Origin: an uncultured Lentisphaeria bacterium
Lineage (GTDB): Bacteria; Verrucomicrobiota; Lentisphaeria; Victivallales; UBA1829
DNA: 64,000 nt
Reading direction: 5' to 3'
Assembly: GCA_949282305.1 (NCBI GenBank)
Contig: CASDPB010000040.1
Coordinates: 62,001 to 126,000 of the forward strand
Both the position numbers and the translations under genes were made by a program. The notes beneath the pieces were generated by a model. It was not told where the DNA came from, ran no database searches, and worked only from the letters and a program-made list of their open reading frames with translations. Position 1 is the first letter of the stretch, and every line of letters begins with the position of its first letter. Shown here piece by piece: positions 30,102 to 39,523 of this stretch.

Positions 30102-32015
30102 TCATTTGGACGGAATGACTGGAACGGCATCGCGCGGGACCAGAATATTTTCCGGCGCGGTGGAGACGAGTGGGAGAAGCGGAGCGCCGACTCGGAACCG
30201 CATATCCTCATGGACATAGGGGAATCTCACACTCCAGATTTCCGATTTTGCGGCATTTTCCCGTTTGCAGACCAGTTGACGGGTGCTGTCGCTCCTGCTG
30301 AATGACGCCATGATCCTGCCGGATGAATTCAGAAGTTCAGCGCCTACGGGTTCTCCGAGATCCGGCGCCGCTTCCAGTCTGATTTCCTCCACGCCGGAAG
30401 GCACCAGGAAATAGAATCTTGCTCCTGATGCGCAAAACATCCCGGTTCTCGTATCCGCCAGAATGGCTTGTCCCGGCTGCCCGGAAGTCAGGGCGACGGC
30501 ATGCAGTCCGGTATTGACTTCCAGCTGCATGACCTCGCTGCCGCTGTTTTTCCTTAAAATATAGGACTGGTTGGGCTTTGTGATTTTGAACTGATCCACC
30601 GGAGTGCCGTTCGAGTCTTTCACGTCAACTGTGACATTGATGGGATTTTTGTAGATTTTCCTGACGCTGAAATCCAGTTTGACGGGCTTTCCGGATTCGA
30701 CGTATTGCAGAATTTTGAATTTTTTACGGAAGAATTTACTCTTCGCCTCTTTTTTTCCTTTCCCTCCCGGAACCAGCTGTTTCAGGTCGACGGTTGCGAC
30801 CTTGAAATTTCTGATTGCCTCATCCGGCTTGTTTGCGAGCATGAATTTCCGGAAATCGAACCTGCTTTCCCTGCCGTTTCTTTCCTGAACGTTCAGGCTT
30901 CCCCGGATGCCGGTCACACCTGCGCCCGAGAGACTTTGAAAGTCCAGCGGACGGCTTCCGCCTGTGATGATTCTGCTGTTTTCAAAGGTGACGCCGGCAA
31001 TGTCCGGCAGCAGGTTTGTGCTGACCGTAACAGCCGCCGCTCCGGTATTTCCGTTGTCGATCAGGCAGTTCCGGAACAGGACTTTCATTGCGTCTTCCTG
31101 AAGATTGCTCAAAATGACGGAATTGGATTTTGCGGAATCCATCCGGCAGTTATCAAACACGAGGTTTCCTTTTGCAGGCGTTGTACCGCTTGCGCTGAGC
31201 ATCATGTTGATTCGATTTCCGGTCATCCTGCAGTTGCGGAACGTTGCGGAAAGCGGCTTTGTCCGTTCCGTCAGCAAGTTCAGATAAAGCAGAATGCCGA
31301 CTGCATTGTTCTCAAATTCACAGTCGGTGATTTCACAGCCGATGATCCATTCATCCGGTTTGTTCGGCTCGAAATCAATGCCCGCCATGGGAGGGGTTCC
31401 CGCCGTATTGCTGAATTTACTGTGACGGATCTTCAGTCCGTCCACGCTGATGACGCTGATTCCCTGGCGGTGGTGATCCGTGGCAGTTACATGTTCGATA
31501 ACGACATTCCGGCATCCCCGCATCCGGGACGATGCGCCGATGTAGATGCCGTCGCCTCCGCTTGATTCCAGGGAAAGCCCGGAGACGAGGACATTCTCGC
31601 ATCCTCTGAGACAGAGGGTGTTGCGCCATTCGGACGGTTTGTACCGCTTGAGGTCCTGATAGTCTTTTTTATTCATGACCAGCCGCACCTTGCCATTGCC
31701 TTTCAGGGATATGTTTTTGCAGTCTGTCGCCTCGAACAGAGAATCGTTCAGCCCGTGGAACGCGCCAGGAAGGGCACGGACGGTCACGCCGTCGGCAAAG
31801 CTGAGTTCCAGATCGGAGCGCAGACGGATTTTATCGACAATCCAGTCTTTCCCCGTATTGTCGACAAGAATTTTCGGAGCCCCGGAGTCGATTGCCTTCT
31901 GCAGACATTCCGTGGCATTTTCCGCATTGAATCCCCATTGGCTCGCTTTTACCGCGTCACTGCCGAATACAGAGATCATCCCGCAGCAGAGGAACATTGC
32001 AATCAGTCGTTTCAT
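30102..32015 (-). CDS. Secreted right-handed beta-helix protein (pectate-lyase/GH28-like)
   Basis: The 637-residue protein has a signal peptide (1-19). From about residue 60 to 410 it shows the repeated short strands of a parallel beta-helix (RGCENVLVSGLSLESSGGDGIYIG, then CRNVVIEHVTATDHHRQGISVISVDGLKIRHSKF, then FENNAVGILLY). The GDGIYIG turn resembles the active-site turns of polysaccharide lyases and GH28-type hydrolases, but a complete catalytic set could not be assigned. The last 180 residues form a separate beta domain. It is the third gene of the lacI operon, so its glycan is probably the inducer source. Confidence 0.8.
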   Translation of the reverse strand: MKRLIAMFLCCGMISVFGSDAVKASQWGFNAENATECLQKAIDSGAPKILVDNTGKDWIVDKIRLRSDLELSFADGVTVRALPGAFHGLNDSLFEATDCKNISLKGNGKVRLVMNKKDYQDLKRYKPSEWRNTLCLRGCENVLVSGLSLESSGGDGIYIGASSRMRGCRNVVIEHVTATDHHRQGISVISVDGLKIRHSKFSNTAGTPPMAGIDFEPNKPDEWIIGCEITDCEFENNAVGILLYLNLLTERTKPLSATFRNCRMTGNRINMMLSASGTTPAKGNLVFDNCRMDSAKSNSVILSNLQEDAMKVLFRNCLIDNGNTGAAAVTVSTNLLPDIAGVTFENSRIITGGSRPLDFQSLSGAGVTGIRGSLNVQERNGRESRFDFRKFMLANKPDEAIRNFKVATVDLKQLVPGGKGKKEAKSKFFRKKFKILQYVESGKPVKLDFSVRKIYKNPINVTVDVKDSNGTPVDQFKITKPNQSYILRKNSGSEVMQLEVNTGLHAVALTSGQPGQAILADTRTGMFCASGARFYFLVPSGVEEIRLEAAPDLGEPVGAELLNSSGRIMASFSRSDSTRQLVCKRENAAKSEIWSVRFPYVHEDMRFRVGAPLLPLVSTAPENILVPRDAVPVIPSK

Positions 32016-32042: not shown

Positions 32043-32837
32043 TTAATAACCCTGATAGTATTTCACCAGATCGTTTTCTTTCGGCGCCTTCCAGAGCCAG
32101 ATGCGCTCATCGTAGGCCAGCACATAATTCACGGTATCGACATGACCGTCTCCATAGACATTGTTTGCTCCTCCTTGGTGGGCTCTGTCAATTCCGATGG
32201 ACGCGCTCTTGTAACGGGCGATCAGTGCGACTCCGTTGCCTGTCCCATACTTCATGGAAACCCCGGTTCTGTCCCCGTCCTGTCTGTAACAGGTCCAGTT
32301 GTCACCCCATAGAACTGTCCGGCTGAGATAGCGGTTCGGCTGTGACAGCTGCAGCCACCTGTCGACGGTGTCGAAGACATTGGAGGGACCGATGTAGTAG
32401 TTGTATCCGTAACTGTCATATACGCGCAGAGAGTTGAACATGTATCCCGGTTTCGAGTCGGTCGGACAGAGCAGGAGTTTGCTTGTCCTGTATGCCGAGG
32501 CGCCGGCGCCGCGGATGCTGGTCGGGACGATTTTATTTTTCGTCAGGTATTCCAGCCAGGTGCATGGTTTCCCGTCAGAGCGCACGGAGCGGTCGAGGAT
32601 ATGTGCGCTCAGCAGTTTCTCCCTGTAGTCATTGGCATAGAGGAACCATATTGTACCGAGCTGTTTCAGATTGCTGCGGCAGCTGGCGCCTTGCGCCGTA
32701 GCGCGTGCGGCGTTCAATGCCGGCAGAAGCATTGCCGCGAGAATCGCGATGATCGCAATTACAATGAGCAATTCTATCAAAGTAAAGAGATGGAGCTGCT
32801 GCGGCTTATGAGTTGCGGGGGGCTGGTGTTTTGTCAT
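32043..32837 (-). CDS. Prepilin-like protein with H-X9-DG motif
   Basis: The N-terminus [19 protein letters not shown] is a type IV pilin/pseudopilin helix, but the residue before the cleavage site is Leu rather than Gly. Near the C-terminus [13 protein letters not shown] has His followed nine residues later by Asp-Gly, the H-X9-DG motif that marks a large PVC-group family of processed pilin-like proteins. Lentisphaeria encode many of these, and their role is unresolved; surface glycan capture or secretion have been suggested. The ATG overlaps the end of lacI by 32 bp and AAGGA lies 8 nt ahead, so translation is coupled. The beta-helix gene follows 27 bp later. Confidence 0.9.
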
Positions 32838-33990
32838 TTTGCATTCCTTTTCTTGCTGTTTTATGTCGTTGAATCTTCTCTCCGCCGGAGTTCGTGACTG
32901 CTGAAAAGCGGCGTATTGCTTCGGAAGCGTCTTCCGTGTATTCTGTCCAGTAGGGATACCCTCTTTTTCCGGTGGGAATGCGGATATGAAGCTCCGGGGA
33001 AAGGAGCCTGGCGCACGGCGTCGGAAGCAGCGCCTCCCTGACCAGTTCCGCCGCCAGCCGGGAAAGATTGTGCTGAACGGAGCTGATCGGCAGCGGGTAG
33101 TTCCGGATCACCTGGTCATTGTTGAAGCCGCCGAGAAGAAGAGAGCGATATTTTCTGTATCCCGGCTGCAGCAGACAGTTTCCGCCGCCGACGGCAAAGG
33201 AGTCGTTCATGTAGATGATTCCTTCGACCCCGGGAAAATCATGGAGCAGGCGTGCGGTGGTCTCGAATCCGTGCCGTTCCCAGCTTGCATGAGGATCAGG
33301 AACATAAAAATCAATGTCGTCCATTGGATAAATGAAACGCTTTTTGATCTCCTGTCCGGTCAGTTCCGGGTATACGCGCATCAAAGCGCCGAACCCGTGA
33401 CAGCCCGGATTGCACTGTTTTTTTTCGCAGATCAGCCGGAAGTTGTCTCCGATCTGCGACCTGATATAACGTATCAGGGCTTCGCCGCCGATAAAAAGAG
33501 AGCTTCTGACCCAGCGCGGAAAAGAGGGGGCGATTCCAACGGAGTTGATTCCCGATGCCTCCAGCTCCGTCATGATCTCCTGCTGCCCGAAGGGCTGTCC
33601 GAGAAAGACGAAGGATTCCACGCCGCGGCCGATCAGTTCTCGGACCTTTTTCAGGTTGGCTTCTGCATCATCGCTGAAGGCGTTGTAATAAGCGGCATAT
33701 CCCAGCTTGTCGAAACCGGTCGTCAGGCGCAGTGTGAGCGCCATGACATGTTCCTCGTCATTCATCTGCGCCCTTGAGTTCATGATTGCCACGGTGCGGG
33801 TCTTCTGTCTGCGCAGGAGCTTGTAGCCGAAACTGACCTGGTAGCCCATCTCTTTTGCAACCCTGCGGACACGTTCCTTGGTCGCTTCCGAACTGTAATT
33901 GTTCGGACGGTTGTTAAGAATCTCGGAAACGCTTGCGACGGACAAGCCGACTGTCGCGGCAATTTCTTTCAATGACACTCTGGCTGGCAT
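32806..33990 (-). CDS. LacI-family transcriptional regulator
   Basis: The N-terminal DNA-binding domain [21 protein letters not shown] (residues 5-25) is a standard LacI helix-turn-helix and hinge. The remainder is a periplasmic-binding-protein-like sensor of 394 aa in total. The ATG at 33990 has AGGAG 12 nt ahead; a longer frame to 34155 would add a non-family tail. Two identical palindromes bracket the promoter, so it probably represses itself and the genes downstream. The ligand is unknown; the adjacent beta-helix gene suggests a sugar released from a polysaccharide. Confidence 0.93.
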
Positions 33991-34007
33991 ACGAATTTTT
34001 CTCCTGC

Positions 34008-34022
34008 ACGAAATTATTTCGT
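34008..34022. promoter_or_regulatory. LacI-type operator O1, ACGAAA-N3-TTTCGT
   Basis: Perfect 6-bp arms around TTA. It covers about +2 to +16 of the predicted lacI transcript, where a bound repressor would block RNA polymerase. A second copy is 57 bp away. Confidence 0.75.
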
Positions 34023-34029
34023 TGGCTGT

Positions 34030-34058
34030 AATATAAGGACTTCCGGATATGATGTCAA
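34030..34058 (-). promoter_or_regulatory. Promoter of the lacI/prepilin/beta-helix operon
   Basis: On the minus strand a perfect TTGACA (34058-34053), 17-bp spacer and TATATT (34035-34030) predict a start near 34023. Operator palindromes lie on both sides. Confidence 0.8.
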
Positions 34059-34064
34059 ATTCAT

Positions 34065-34079
34065 ACGAAATATTTTCGT
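34065..34079. promoter_or_regulatory. LacI-type operator O2, ACGAAA-N3-TTTCGT
   Basis: Perfect 6-bp arms around TAT. It lies just upstream of the -35 box, about -42 to -56. Same arm sequence as O1; centres are 57 bp apart, which could allow looping. Confidence 0.75.
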
Positions 34080-34267: not shown

Positions 34268-35728
34268 ATGAATGGATGTTATGACATTGCGATCATAGGG
34301 GCGGGCGTGACCGGCGCGGCAACTGCGGCGGCTTTGTCGCGCTACCGCCTGAAAGTGATCCTGCTGGAAAAAGAGGCGGATGCAGGTTTCGGCGTATCCA
34401 AAGCGAACTCGGGGATTGTGCACGGCGGTTTTCACTACCCGCTGTCCACACTCAAGGGGCGTCTGGAGATTCTCGGGAACCTGATGTTCGAGAAACTTCA
34501 TTATGAGCTTGGTTTTCCTTATCGCAGATGCGGAATCATTGTCGCTGCATTTTCGGAGGAGGAGCTGGCGGAGGTGCGTCGTCTTTATCGTCAGGGGGTG
34601 GAAAACCGGGTGCCGCGGATTGAGCTCTGTTCCGCGGAACGGATGCTGGAGCTGGAACCGAAACTTTCCCCTGATGTCGCCGGAGGGCTTTACGCGCCCG
34701 GAGGCGGTGTCGTGGAACCCTACCGTTATGTTTTTTCCCTGCTGGAACTGGCGAAGCGCAACGGGGTTGAATTTCTTGCGGAGTACAAGCTCGAAAAGGC
34801 GTCGTTTGCGGATGGCGTATGGACTTTGCAGGCGCATGACGGGCGCAGGGTTGAAGCGAAGTATGCGGTCAATGCCGCGGGGCTTCATGCGGATGACGTT
34901 TCCCGGATATTCGGGGCGGAAGAGTTCCGGATTTCCGCACGCAAAGGCGAGGAATATCTGCTGGACCGGGCTTCGGCGGCGTATCCGTCCAAGGTGGTCT
35001 TTCCCGTTCCTGTGAAACATTCCAAGGGCGTGCTTGTGATTCCCACCGTGGACGGAACGACGATGGTCGGGCCGACTGCGGAAATTGTCGAGGACAAGGA
35101 GGATCACTCCACTACGGCGGAAAACATGGCGGCGGTGTTCCGGCAGGCGAAGCGGATGGTGCCCGCCGTGTCGGAACGCGATCTGATTACGGGATTCAGC
35201 GGTTCGCGCCCGGTGATGGACGGCAATGATTTTTATATTGCCTTTTCAAAGAAGGCGGAGAATCTGATTCAGGCGGCAGGCATCCAGTCGCCGGGACTGA
35301 CGGCATCTCCGGCGATTGCCGAATATATCTGCGGTCTGCTCCGTGAAAACGGGGTCTGTCTTGAAGAAAAGAGACAGTTTGCAACCATGCTGGAGTCTCC
35401 GGTTCAGATCCGGAAACAATCCACAGAAGAAGCGGACCGGCTTCATGGAGAAGATCCGGCGTGGACCAATATCATCTGCCGCTGTGAGAAGATTTCCGAG
35501 GCGGAGATTGTGGAGGCGATCCGGCACGGGCATACCACGCTGGACGGAATTAAATTCTATACCCGTGCGGGCATGGGGCGCTGCCAGGGCGGTTTCTGTT
35601 CCTATAAAATCCTCAAGATCATTGCGCGGGAGACAGGAATGTCTTTGGAGGAAGCTACGAAGCGCGGCGGAAATACCGGATTTATTTCCGGGCATCTTCA
35701 GGATTATGGAAAAGGGGGGCGGACATGA
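34268..35728 (+). CDS. GlpA-like FAD oxidoreductase with C-terminal [2Fe-2S] BFD-like domain
   Basis: Residues 5-25 form the FAD site (DIAIIGAGVTGAATAAALSRY), followed by the DAO/glycerol-3-phosphate dehydrogenase fold (SGIVHGGFHYP). From about residue 400 a Fer2_BFD domain has CRCEKIS and later CQGGFC, the four Cys of a [2Fe-2S] cluster. This matches anaerobic GlpA and the related stand-alone oxidoreductases paired with a NAD(P)/FAD partner. It overlaps the next gene by 4 bp. Glycerol-3-phosphate oxidation is the best guess; hydroxyacid dehydrogenation is possible. Confidence 0.85.
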   Translation: MNGCYDIAIIGAGVTGAATAAALSRYRLKVILLEKEADAGFGVSKANSGIVHGGFHYPLSTLKGRLEILGNLMFEKLHYELGFPYRRCGIIVAAFSEEELAEVRRLYRQGVENRVPRIELCSAERMLELEPKLSPDVAGGLYAPGGGVVEPYRYVFSLLELAKRNGVEFLAEYKLEKASFADGVWTLQAHDGRRVEAKYAVNAAGLHADDVSRIFGAEEFRISARKGEEYLLDRASAAYPSKVVFPVPVKHSKGVLVIPTVDGTTMVGPTAEIVEDKEDHSTTAENMAAVFRQAKRMVPAVSERDLITGFSGSRPVMDGNDFYIAFSKKAENLIQAAGIQSPGLTASPAIAEYICGLLRENGVCLEEKRQFATMLESPVQIRKQSTEEADRLHGEDPAWTNIICRCEKISEAEIVEAIRHGHTTLDGIKFYTRAGMGRCQGGFCSYKILKIIARETGMSLEEATKRGGNTGFISGHLQDYGKGGRT

Positions 35729-36993
35729 AGAAGCTCTATTATGACATTGCCGTGATCGGCGGCGGGGCGGCGGGACTGACCGCCGCATACGGCTGTGCCT
35801 CCGAAGGCATGAAGACAGTTGTGATCGACCGGGAGGAGACGCCTGGAGGAGTGCTTCTGCAATGTATTCACAACGGATTCGGTCTGCATTATTTCAATGC
35901 GGAACTGACCGGGCCTGAATATGCGGCGAGAGTTTTGAAGCAGGCGGAGGATGCGGGAGCTTCTTTTCTGCTGAGTTCCACGGTCATGAAGATTGAGGAC
36001 TGCGGAGAGGAGAAAATCCTGACGGTCTATTCAAAGGCGGATGGTGTGACTCTGGTTCATGCGAAGGCGGTGATTCTGGCGATGGGATGCCGGGAACGCT
36101 GCCGCGGGAATCTGGGGATTCCGGGCGACCGTGCCGCCGGCATTTTTACCGCCGGACTTGCGCAGCGGCTGCTGAACGTGGAGGGGTGTCTGCCCGGCAG
36201 GAAAGCGGTGATTGTCGGTTCCGGTGACATCGGGCTGATTATGGCGCGGCGTCTGACATGGTGCGGAATCGAAGTGAAGGCGGTAATTGAGATCATGCCT
36301 TATCCGTCCGGATTGAGCCGGAACATCGCACAGTGCCTTGAGGATTTCAATATCCCGCTCCACCTCAGCACGGGCGTGGTGAACATTCATGGACGGGACC
36401 GGGTCGAAAGCGTTACCGCCGCCCCTGTCGAAAACGGCATTCCGCAGATGGACAGGGCATGGAAAATCGAATGCGACACAGTTCTGTTTTCCGTCGGGCT
36501 GATTCCGGAAAACGAGCTTGCCAAGGAGTGCGGTGTTGTGCTGAACCCCGCAACGAACGGGGCATGGGTCGATGGCAATCTTATGACGAATGTACAGGGA
36601 ATTTTTTCCTGCGGGAACGTGCTTCATGTGCATGATCTCGTGGATTTCGTGTCCGAGGAGGCACTGCGCTGCGCCGCCTGTGCCGTTCAATGGAGCAGGT
36701 CGAAGGAGAAGAGCCCGGTTCTGCAGGGCAGGACAACATGCGGCGAGCATTTGCGCTATGTGGTTCCGAACTGTTATGTTCCCGGCGGAGAAGGACATTT
36801 CTACATGCGCCCGAAAATCGTCGCATCCGCGGCGGAGCTCGCCGTGAGGGCAGGGGAAAGGGAGATTCTGCGGAAAAGACTGCACTGGGTCAAACCCGCG
36901 GAAATGATCGCCGTGACTCTTCCCGCGGCGCTTGCCGCAGACTGCACCCCCGGAGAGACTCTGAACTTTGAACTGAAAGAGGTGAAGGCATGA
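35725..36993 (+). CDS. GlpB-like NAD(P)/FAD-dependent oxidoreductase
   Basis: The 422-residue protein has two dinucleotide folds: DIAVIGGGAAGLTAAYG at the start and AVIVGSGDIGLIMARRL near residue 155. It is the pyridine-nucleotide-disulphide type without a redox disulphide. Partners of GlpA-like proteins use this subunit to pass electrons to or from NAD(P). The start codon overlaps the previous stop (ATGA) and the next gene overlaps its own stop the same way. It contains a HVHDLVDFVSEEA stretch near the C-terminal third, typical of this subfamily. Confidence 0.85.
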   Translation: MKKLYYDIAVIGGGAAGLTAAYGCASEGMKTVVIDREETPGGVLLQCIHNGFGLHYFNAELTGPEYAARVLKQAEDAGASFLLSSTVMKIEDCGEEKILTVYSKADGVTLVHAKAVILAMGCRERCRGNLGIPGDRAAGIFTAGLAQRLLNVEGCLPGRKAVIVGSGDIGLIMARRLTWCGIEVKAVIEIMPYPSGLSRNIAQCLEDFNIPLHLSTGVVNIHGRDRVESVTAAPVENGIPQMDRAWKIECDTVLFSVGLIPENELAKECGVVLNPATNGAWVDGNLMTNVQGIFSCGNVLHVHDLVDFVSEEALRCAACAVQWSRSKEKSPVLQGRTTCGEHLRYVVPNCYVPGGEGHFYMRPKIVASAAELAVRAGEREILRKRLHWVKPAEMIAVTLPAALAADCTPGETLNFELKEVKA

Positions 36994-37352
36994 GGAAAAC
37001 TGAAAAAATCTGCATCGGATGCCCGGCGGGATGTCATCTTGAGATCACGGTTCGGGAAGACGGTTCGCTTCAGATCGCCGGAAACACCTGCAGGCGCGGG
37101 ATCGCCTATGCGGAAAATGAGATGCGCGATCCGCGCCGCGTTGTAACCGCGGTGGTGCATTGCAGCTCGGAAAGACTGCCCTGCATTCCTGTGCGGACAG
37201 ATCAGGCGCTGCCTGTAAAGCTGATTGAACCGCTGCTCCGGCGGCTTTACTCAATGAAGGTGTGCGCCCCGGTTCGTGCCGGCGACATCCTGATCCGTGA
37301 CTTTGAAGGCAGCGGGATCAACGTGGTGTTTACAAGGGACTCCGAACCATGA
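36990..37352 (+). CDS. DUF1667 protein, partner of GlpA/GlpB-like oxidoreductases
   Basis: This 120-residue protein begins MRKTEKICIGCPAGCHLEITV and has CxxCxxxC plus a later Cys (NTCRRG), which could bind an iron-sulphur cluster. DUF1667 genes regularly follow the two oxidoreductase genes in Firmicutes and Thermotogae, in the place where GlpC would be expected. It is therefore likely a third electron-transfer subunit. There is no membrane segment. It overlaps neighbours by 4 bp at both ends. Confidence 0.85.
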   Translation: MRKTEKICIGCPAGCHLEITVREDGSLQIAGNTCRRGIAYAENEMRDPRRVVTAVVHCSSERLPCIPVRTDQALPVKLIEPLLRRLYSMKVCAPVRAGDILIRDFEGSGINVVFTRDSEP

Positions 37353-38155
37353 AACATGATCTTTCAAAACTTCGCCATGTCGTGATGGATATGGACGGCA
37401 CAATTTACCGGGGAAAGGAGCTCTTCCCGACGACGCAGCCTTTTCTGCGCCGTCTGAAGTCCCTCGGAATCGGTTACACGTTTCTGACGAACAACTCCTC
37501 GCGAAGCGTGGACGACTATCTTGAACATCTGCGTCGTTTCGGAATCAGGATACGGCGGGAGCAGATGTTCACCTCCACTTTGAACACGGTTGCCTACCTG
37601 AAGGCGGAGCATCCGGCGGCGAAGAGGCTTTTCATGATCGGGACGGAGGTTTTCCGGCGGGAAATGGAGGAATACGGTTTTCATGATGTGAACATGACGG
37701 ATGAACCCGATGCGGTCGTGACGGCATTCGACACCGCGCTGCAATATGAACGGCTCTGCAAGGCGGCGTGGTGGATCAAACGGGGCAAACTCTGGATTGC
37801 GACGCATCCCGATACGGAATGTCCGACGGAACTGGATACGACTCTGATCGACTGCGGAAGCATCACCGCATGTCTGGAAAAAGTGTCCGGCCGCTCTCCT
37901 GTCGTTCTGGGCAAGCCGAATCCTGAAATTCTCTGCGAGATCATGCGCCGGAACGGGGTCGCTCCGGAGGAGACCGCGATGTGCGGAGACCGTCTTTACA
38001 CTGACCTGCGTCTTGCCGCGAACGCCGGAACAACAGGTGTGCTGATCAGTTCCGAACCGCCGGAAAAAATTCCCGGCAACTTTGCCGATCTCACCGTGCC
38101 GGACCTTGAAGAATTCGGCAGACAAATCTCTCTGGCAAAATGCGGAAAGATATGA
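37349..38155 (+). CDS. HAD-IIA phosphatase (NagD / phosphoglycolate-phosphatase-like)
   Basis: The 268-residue protein has motif I VVMDMDGTIY, motif II TFLTNNSS and motif IV CGDRLYTDLRLAANAG, the full HAD-IIA set with a C2 cap. Relatives remove phosphate from nucleotides, phosphoglycolate, 4-nitrophenylphosphate or glycerol-3-phosphate. Its ATGA overlap with DUF1667 puts it in the same transcript as the GlpA/GlpB-like pair, so glycerol-3-phosphate or a related triose phosphate is a reasonable substrate. That is inference from position. Confidence 0.88.
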   Translation: MKHDLSKLRHVVMDMDGTIYRGKELFPTTQPFLRRLKSLGIGYTFLTNNSSRSVDDYLEHLRRFGIRIRREQMFTSTLNTVAYLKAEHPAAKRLFMIGTEVFRREMEEYGFHDVNMTDEPDAVVTAFDTALQYERLCKAAWWIKRGKLWIATHPDTECPTELDTTLIDCGSITACLEKVSGRSPVVLGKPNPEILCEIMRRNGVAPEETAMCGDRLYTDLRLAANAGTTGVLISSEPPEKIPGNFADLTVPDLEEFGRQISLAKCGKI

Positions 38156-38161
38156 TATATT
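38132..38161 (+). promoter_or_regulatory. Predicted promoter of the symporter gene
   Basis: CTGGCA at 38132-38137 and TATATT at 38156-38161 are 18 bp apart. It lies at the end of the HAD gene, 48 bp before the symporter start. Confidence 0.5.
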
Positions 38162-38209
38162 ACTTTTTCTGATTTCGTTTTGCCGAAAAAACAACAAAAG
38201 AGAGATTGT

Positions 38210-39523
38210 ATGCTGAAGAAAATCATTGCCGGATATTTTTCCGTGGCGCTTGTCTGGCGCGTCGCCATTGCCTTTGTTCTCGGTATTGCCGCCGGTATTT
38301 CATGTTCACGGCTGGGGGCATGTTACGGGGAGGAGCTGACTGCGCGGATCACGGCGGTCGTTTCGCCTTTCGGGACGGTGCTCATTGCGATGCTGAAAAT
38401 GGTGGTGATTCCCATCATCTTCTTTTCCCTGGTCGCCGGAGCGGCGAGCCTGCCGGTCAAGAAGTTCGGCAGACTCGGACTGTCGGTTCTGGTGTGGTAC
38501 TTCCTGACCTCGCTTTTTGCGGGAGTCTTCGGGATTTTCCTTGCCGTGGTCATGAATCCCGCCATGGAGAATGCGCAGAAACTTTCCGAAAAGTTTCTGC
38601 CGCAGGTCGGCGCGATGAAGATGCACGGGACGGCGGGCGGAATTTCCCAGTTCATCAACAATCTTTTTATGAATCCGTTCCAGGCGCTTGCGGAAGGACA
38701 GTTCCTGCCGATCATCATCTTTTCCATCCTCTTCGGGCTTGCCGCACGCATTGTGATCGAACAGCACGGCGAGGAATCGAAAACCGGCAGAGCCGTGGAG
38801 CTGATGCTTGATGTGTTTGACGCCGCGCAGAAGGCTTCATTCAAGATCATCGACTGGGTGATGGAGTATTTCCCCGTCGGCGTATTTGCGCTTACGACGG
38901 TCAATTTTGCCGTGTACGGAACGAAACTGTTCGGTCCTTACGTGCGGATTGCCGGATGCGTCATGATCGGCGTCCTGCTGATGATCTTTCTGATTTATCC
39001 GATGTTCCTTCTGCTGCTCTGCCGCGAAAATCCTTATCGTGTAATGAACAAGATCAAGGAAGCGGTCATTACGGCATTTCTGACCCGTTCCAGCGCGGCG
39101 ACTCTGCCGATTTCTTTCCGAATCGCGAAGGAGAAGCTCCATGTGAAGGAACAGCTTTCAAGTTTCGCCCTGCCGCTCGGAGCCACGATCAATATGGACG
39201 GAGTCTGCATCCATCTGCCGGTTTTCGCAATCCTCGCCGCAAACATTTTCGGGATTCAGATTGGAGTTTCGCAGCTGGCGGTTCTGCTGGTATCCGTGGT
39301 CTTTGCATCGGTCGGAGCCGGCGGCATCCCCGGCGGAAGCGTTTTTCTGCTGTTCATGGTGCTGGCGAATCTCGGGCTGAATGATTCCGAGGTCGCGATG
39401 ATTGTGGCGCTTGCCATCGGAATCAATCCGCTCCTCGACATGTTTGAGACGGCGTGCAATGTGGCGGGCGACAATGTCTGCAACTATATTGTCGGAAAAC
39501 GCGGCGGAATGCTGGAAAAGTAG
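38210..39523 (+). CDS. Dicarboxylate/amino acid:cation symporter (DAACS family)
   Basis: The 437-residue membrane protein has the family hallmarks: LIAMLKMVVIPIIFFSLVAGAASL near residue 60, the serine-rich FLTRSSAATLPISF in reentrant hairpin 1, and LPLGATINMDGVCIHLPVFAIL, whose NMDG is the Na+/substrate site. GAGGIPGG in hairpin 2 follows. It takes up glutamate, aspartate or C4-dicarboxylates with Na+ or H+. The ATG at 38210 was chosen over a TTG at 38180 because AGAGAG lies just before it. It has its own promoter. Confidence 0.93.
   Translation: MLKKIIAGYFSVALVWRVAIAFVLGIAAGISCSRLGACYGEELTARITAVVSPFGTVLIAMLKMVVIPIIFFSLVAGAASLPVKKFGRLGLSVLVWYFLTSLFAGVFGIFLAVVMNPAMENAQKLSEKFLPQVGAMKMHGTAGGISQFINNLFMNPFQALAEGQFLPIIIFSILFGLAARIVIEQHGEESKTGRAVELMLDVFDAAQKASFKIIDWVMEYFPVGVFALTTVNFAVYGTKLFGPYVRIAGCVMIGVLLMIFLIYPMFLLLLCRENPYRVMNKIKEAVITAFLTRSSAATLPISFRIAKEKLHVKEQLSSFALPLGATINMDGVCIHLPVFAILAANIFGIQIGVSQLAVLLVSVVFASVGAGGIPGGSVFLLFMVLANLGLNDSEVAMIVALAIGINPLLDMFETACNVAGDNVCNYIVGKRGGMLEK

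Follow-up and report, generated by a model that had tools for sequence, protein, structure and literature searches.

LacI-family regulators are autoregulated in 72% of cases, and about 20% of regulated operons carry multiple sites (Ravcheev 2014, PMC4052901). In the window, by which we mean the whole stretch of 64,000 nt that was analysed, two short palindromes bracket the promoter of a lacI-family gene, and the locus raises the question of whether the encoded protein binds both of them and represses its own operon. An initial annotation had described the arrangement as an autoregulatory switch, possibly with looping. From the sequence and its comparison across species we consider self-repression through both palindromes probable (about 0.86), and the operon so controlled would comprise lacI, a prepilin-like gene and a beta-helix gene.

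The probable lacI operon and its promoter

The features of the locus are listed below.

30102-32015, minus strand: secreted-looking right-handed beta-helix protein with a pectate-lyase-like fold
32043-32837, minus strand: prepilin-like protein, with the TIGR02532 N-terminal motif and an H-X9-DG C-terminal motif
32806-33990, minus strand: lacI-family repressor of 394 aa, with hinge FGYKLL in place of the usual xxARxL
34001-34005, minus strand: AGGAG, likely Shine-Dalgarno sequence as judged from its letters, 10 nt before the ATG at 33990
34008-34022: O1, predicted proximal operator, ACGAAATTATTTCGT, with 7-bp arms around a single central base, spanning about +2 to +16
34035-34030, minus strand: -10 box TATATT, 17 bp from the -35 box
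34058-34053, minus strand: -35 box TTGACA
34065-34079: O2, predicted distal operator, ACGAAATATTTTCGT, about -42 to -56
34268-39523, plus strand: divergent gene cluster

The protein matches the N-terminal LacI helix-turn-helix family PF00356 (37.3 bits, cutoff 27). Peripla_BP_3 was not found when the window LacI was scanned alone against families and was detected in a close paralogue. A profile of the subfamily finds LacI-family structures, with a match spanning positions 3-316 of 334 (E 3e-28); full-length structures such as 3dbi, PurR, CcpA and LacI itself are among those matched, and through this match the protein has a C-terminal sensor domain resembling periplasmic binding proteins. The start codon at 33990 is set by homologues. 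A longer mechanical open reading frame, from 34155, would place the promoter inside the gene; homologues do not support it.

The prepilin-like gene overlaps the end of lacI by 32 bp on the same strand. In genome G109, which belongs to another genus and family of the same order, the same cassette occurs behind a bracketed promoter, with a LacI 46% identical to that of the window and a third gene whose product is 50% identical to the window beta-helix protein. Because the three genes share strand, close spacing and a conserved order, we infer that they are co-transcribed, and the target of the switch, which had been given as lacI, is most likely the three-gene operon with lacI as one member. The divergent cluster encodes a glycerol-3-phosphate oxidase-like FAD protein with a BFD domain, a pyridine-nucleotide oxidoreductase, a DUF1667 protein, a HAD hydrolase and a dicarboxylate symporter, and is probably an operon for oxidation of the glycerol-3-phosphate type.

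Read on the minus strand, the promoter region runs ACGAAAATATTTCGT-ATGAAT-TTGACA-17 bp-TATATT-ACAGCCA-ACGAAATAATTTCGT-GCAGGAG-AAAAATTCGT-ATG. The motif ACGAAA-N3-TTTCGT had been reported twice before lacI with centres 57 bp apart, and we find it so, with centres at 34015 and 34072. The two palindromes had also been called identical and the promoter perfect. The six-base arms are indeed the same in both copies, whereas the three central bases are TTA in O1 and TAT in O2, and it is O1 that forms a perfect palindrome with 7-bp arms. Likewise, TTGACA and its 17-bp spacer are as described, whereas the -10 box agrees with the consensus at 5/6 bases and the promoter as a whole at 11/12. Counted from the position of the -10 box, transcription is predicted to start at about 34023, which puts the centre of O1 at about +9 and that of O2 at about -49. 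One site therefore lies at the predicted transcription start and the other upstream of TTGACA, as first described, with 6 bp between the end of O2 and the -35 box.

In the mechanism that we propose, the LacI encoded at 32806-33990 would bind each palindrome as a dimer. Occupancy of O1 would cover the transcription start and block RNA polymerase, and occupancy of O2 upstream of the -35 box may add to repression, either by crowding the promoter or by cooperation with the dimer at O1. The lacI gene would thus be repressed together with the genes for the prepilin-like protein and the secreted beta-helix protein until a ligand releases LacI and turns the operon on. Given the LacI family and the beta-helix partner, this ligand is probably a sugar or oligosaccharide derived from the substrate.

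Conservation and rarity of the predicted operator pair

The same bracket, with centres 57-59 bp apart, is present in 4/5 of the closest homologues, all from other genera and 45-47% identical to the window LacI. The pairs are as follows.

G110a: TACAAAATCATTGCGTA and TACAAAATCATTACGTA, 58 bp apart
G109a: TACAAAAATATTTTGTA and TATAAAATGGTTTTGTA, 59 bp apart
G136a: TACAAATAATATTTGTT and TACAAACACTATTTGTT, 59 bp apart
G136b: TGCAAATATACTTTGCA and TGCAAAGTATGTTTGCG, 57 bp apart

In all four, one site lies upstream of TTGACA and the other past the -10 box (TTGACA..TATnAT), and the centre of O1 lies about 19-21 nt beyond the first base of the -10 box, as in the window. The fifth homologue, G110b (45% identity), has the proximal O1 and no visible O2. 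A sister clade carries a pair of sites at 72 bp (G109b) and 70 bp (G136c). The letters of the operators vary between species, yet within each species both copies are altered together: an O1 equals its own O2 at a mean of 15.1 of 17 positions and the O2 of other species at 10.7, and only 2/5040 pairings of O1 with O2, one of them the true pairing, do as well as the true value. Sites that differ between species and are alike within a promoter would be expected if a single protein has to bind both. The comparison strongly supports the proposed autoregulatory switch, in that homologues keep both sites 57-59 bp apart while their letters change jointly. In-frame stop codons were seen in some lacI homologues of G110 and G109 (L110/L154 and L111/L155), and these are either assembly errors or decaying copies.

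An O1-like palindrome just past the -10 box is common among the 91 lacI promoters that we scanned, and in most lacI promoters of the genome it stands alone, with no second site. A second, upstream copy beats all 90 cross-locus controls in 7/91 promoters, a scan in which O1 was picked automatically, so that among the other rows some do not represent genuine operators. Besides that of the window, the lacI promoters of the same genome among these seven are L032 (75 bp), L085 (76 bp) and L094 (58 bp). L085 (contig C72) and L032 (contig C36) carry near-identical promoter-bracketing pairs of CG-centred sites, TATAGAACGTTTCAA and AATAACGCGAGTAATT. A similar odd site, TACGGAATGATTGCGTA, occupies the corresponding position at the closest paralogue of this genome, and a near copy of that site precedes another prepilin operon.

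Single short palindromes are frequent, with 27 of the 6-3-6 form in the window and about 20 per shuffled window, and the pair might therefore be a product of chance or of local duplication without function. This is extremely improbable. O1 and O2 are the only identical pair of palindromes with 6-bp arms within 150 bp of each other in the window, at any spacer from 0 to 8, and 200 dinucleotide shuffles of the window gave 0 such pairs with a spacer of 3 and 2 with all spacers of 0-8 taken together. The flanks of the two copies are also unlike each other, against duplication, and the bracket is kept in other genera. The initial annotation had suggested searching the genome for the 15-bp motif and held that many unrelated copies would speak against the switch. 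The 4.36-Mb genome, which is 96% complete and may therefore lack a distant target, contains two exact copies, both at the lacI promoter, and no wider regulon of the exact motif was found in it, in agreement with a local, autoregulated regulon. Sites with at most one mismatch are not in excess (10, against 13 for a reversed control pattern); at two mismatches there are 15 against 8, and part of this excess is the operator that precedes the contig C8 lacI paralogue, together with its near copy before a prepilin operon.

The palindromes could instead be read by a regulator other than the adjacent one, as the genome has 58 LacI-type helix-turn-helix matches and one paralogue may control a further prepilin operon in trans. 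We think this very unlikely, because the exact sites are unique to the window lacI promoter and accompany close LacI homologues into other genera, their letters changing with them. O2 might also serve the divergent glpA-like operon from 34268 onward, in whose shared intergenic region with lacI it lies, the bracketing of the lacI promoter being then incidental. This reading is no more probable than the preceding one and was rejected: O2 is kept whatever the upstream neighbour (in the window the glpA-like gene, in G109b another divergent one), a search for a plus-strand consensus promoter near O2 found none, and only the 6-bp gap separates O2 from the lacI -35 box.

Spacing of the two sites and known systems

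The same repressor and sites might close the promoter by a DNA loop of 57 bp between O1 and O2. Looping is a sub-case of self-repression through both sites, so that the two are not mutually exclusive, and we regard it as possible but doubtful. In its favour, the spacing is kept at 57-59 bp in five homologues (that of the window included), with 70-72 bp in a further two; at 11.6 bp per turn, a value for the in-vivo helical repeat obtained by fitting one E. coli lac data set (PMC1762422), these correspond to 4.9-5.1 and 6.0-6.2 turns. The helical phase depends, however, on the repeat assumed, and neither 10.5 nor 11.08 bp per turn makes the spacings a whole number of turns. Two other paralogues with two sites have them 75 and 76 bp apart, and LacI operators 46-56 bp apart showed no effect of distance (PMC7804116). 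The leucine heptad of tetrameric LacI is absent from the C-terminal tail, where a search of the last 45 residues found only scattered I, V, I and M. Sites that merely abut the core promoter would, moreover, yield 57-59 bp anyway. Of the looping first proposed, then, the possibility stands, without the heptad and with a spacing that abutting sites would also explain.

Self-repression through both sites is ordinary in kind: the switch is predicted, well conserved and, we believe, real. As in known local LacI-family regulons (PMC4052901, PMC2978694), a lacI-family gene lies behind palindromes that its product most likely binds, controlling itself and the adjacent operon, and the window shares with about 20% of regulated operons the possession of multiple sites. 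It differs from them in its spacing (57-59 bp with homologues included, against reported peaks at 13, 22 and 32 bp), in an odd motif with no central CpG and in an atypical hinge.

E. coli lac, with O1 and O3, likewise has a proximal operator near the transcription start and an upstream auxiliary operator, and its natural operator is an odd palindrome too. The lac spacing is 92 bp, against 57 bp in the window; the window LacI has no visible tetramerisation heptad, the operator letters differ, and the window repressor gene belongs to its own target operon. In E. coli gal, the LacI-family repressor GalR has two operators flanking the promoters, as in the window, and forms a loop with HU; gal has a wider spacing and two promoters, and at the window locus a loop is only a possibility.

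Hinge, operator centre and repeated cassettes

What is unusual in the window switch is the operator centre and the LacI hinge. Among 1303 LacI-family motifs, 1251 are even palindromes (96%, most of them CG-centred), 1173 have a central CG, and odd motifs make up 4% (Ravcheev et al., PMC4052901). The central CG is tied to the Ala and Leu of the hinge, and exceptions have been termed rare (Camas et al., PMC2978694). The window hinge, VSFGYKLLR, keeps the Leu and has Tyr in place of Ala, and so departs from PNxxARxL, a pattern that is typical of the LacI/GalR family and not a strict definition of it; the window operators, centred on TTA and TAT, are likewise not even CG-centred sites. We compared hinge regions of L011-L109 and relatives with the best palindrome past the -10 box, chosen automatically. 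The operator centre is CG in 16/20 paralogues with an Ala hinge (not CG in 4/20) and in 0/27 scored members with a GYK-type hinge (Fisher 3e-9; 16/4 against 0/5 in the window's own genome, P 0.002), P values that overstate independence because the members are related. A changed hinge thus goes with a non-CpG operator centre in a clear pattern, which is a correlation across sequences. For LacI position 22 a residue-to-base code was also considered, in which Glu would go with ACGA and Gln with ACAA; it fails for the C8 paralogue, which has Gln with ACGG. The joint change of hinge and operator centre offers a testable natural case of LacI-family proteins leaving the CpG-centred site.

Beside its 58 LacI-type matches, the genome has 143 prepilin-like N-termini, and in 27 cases, against 1.6 expected by chance, a lacI helix-turn-helix is followed on its own strand by a prepilin-like start no more than 1.7 kb downstream. 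With 27/58 lacI genes preceding a prepilin-like gene, the window locus belongs to a numerous set of cassettes with private operators. Among the papers listed by a literature search for lacI-prepilin cassettes, none was seen to describe them. In a search of named genomes, the matches were confined to distant helix-turn-helix ones; judged by gene content, the host is probably a Lentisphaerae/Victivallales-type bacterium. One prepilin operon, at L142, has no adjacent lacI match; ACGGAATGATTACGT stands before it, just past a -10-like box (L142:1501-1515, contig C27:99715-99729), and equals the operator of the C8 lacI paralogue at 14/15 letters. The C8 paralogue may act on this operon in trans, or lacI may have been lost there.

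More tentatively, this one genome might possess dozens of mutually insulated switches made up of lacI, a prepilin-like gene and a secreted-protein gene, each with its own operator spelling, among which a subfamily with a changed hinge reads non-CpG operators of odd or even spacing and one clade retains a pair of operators, spaced at 57-59 bp, that form a short repression loop. In uncultured relatives, operator spellings become readable for regulators by the dozen, and the repetition of the lacI, prepilin-like and secreted-protein cassette suggests separate control of many secreted-protein operons in this group of bacteria.
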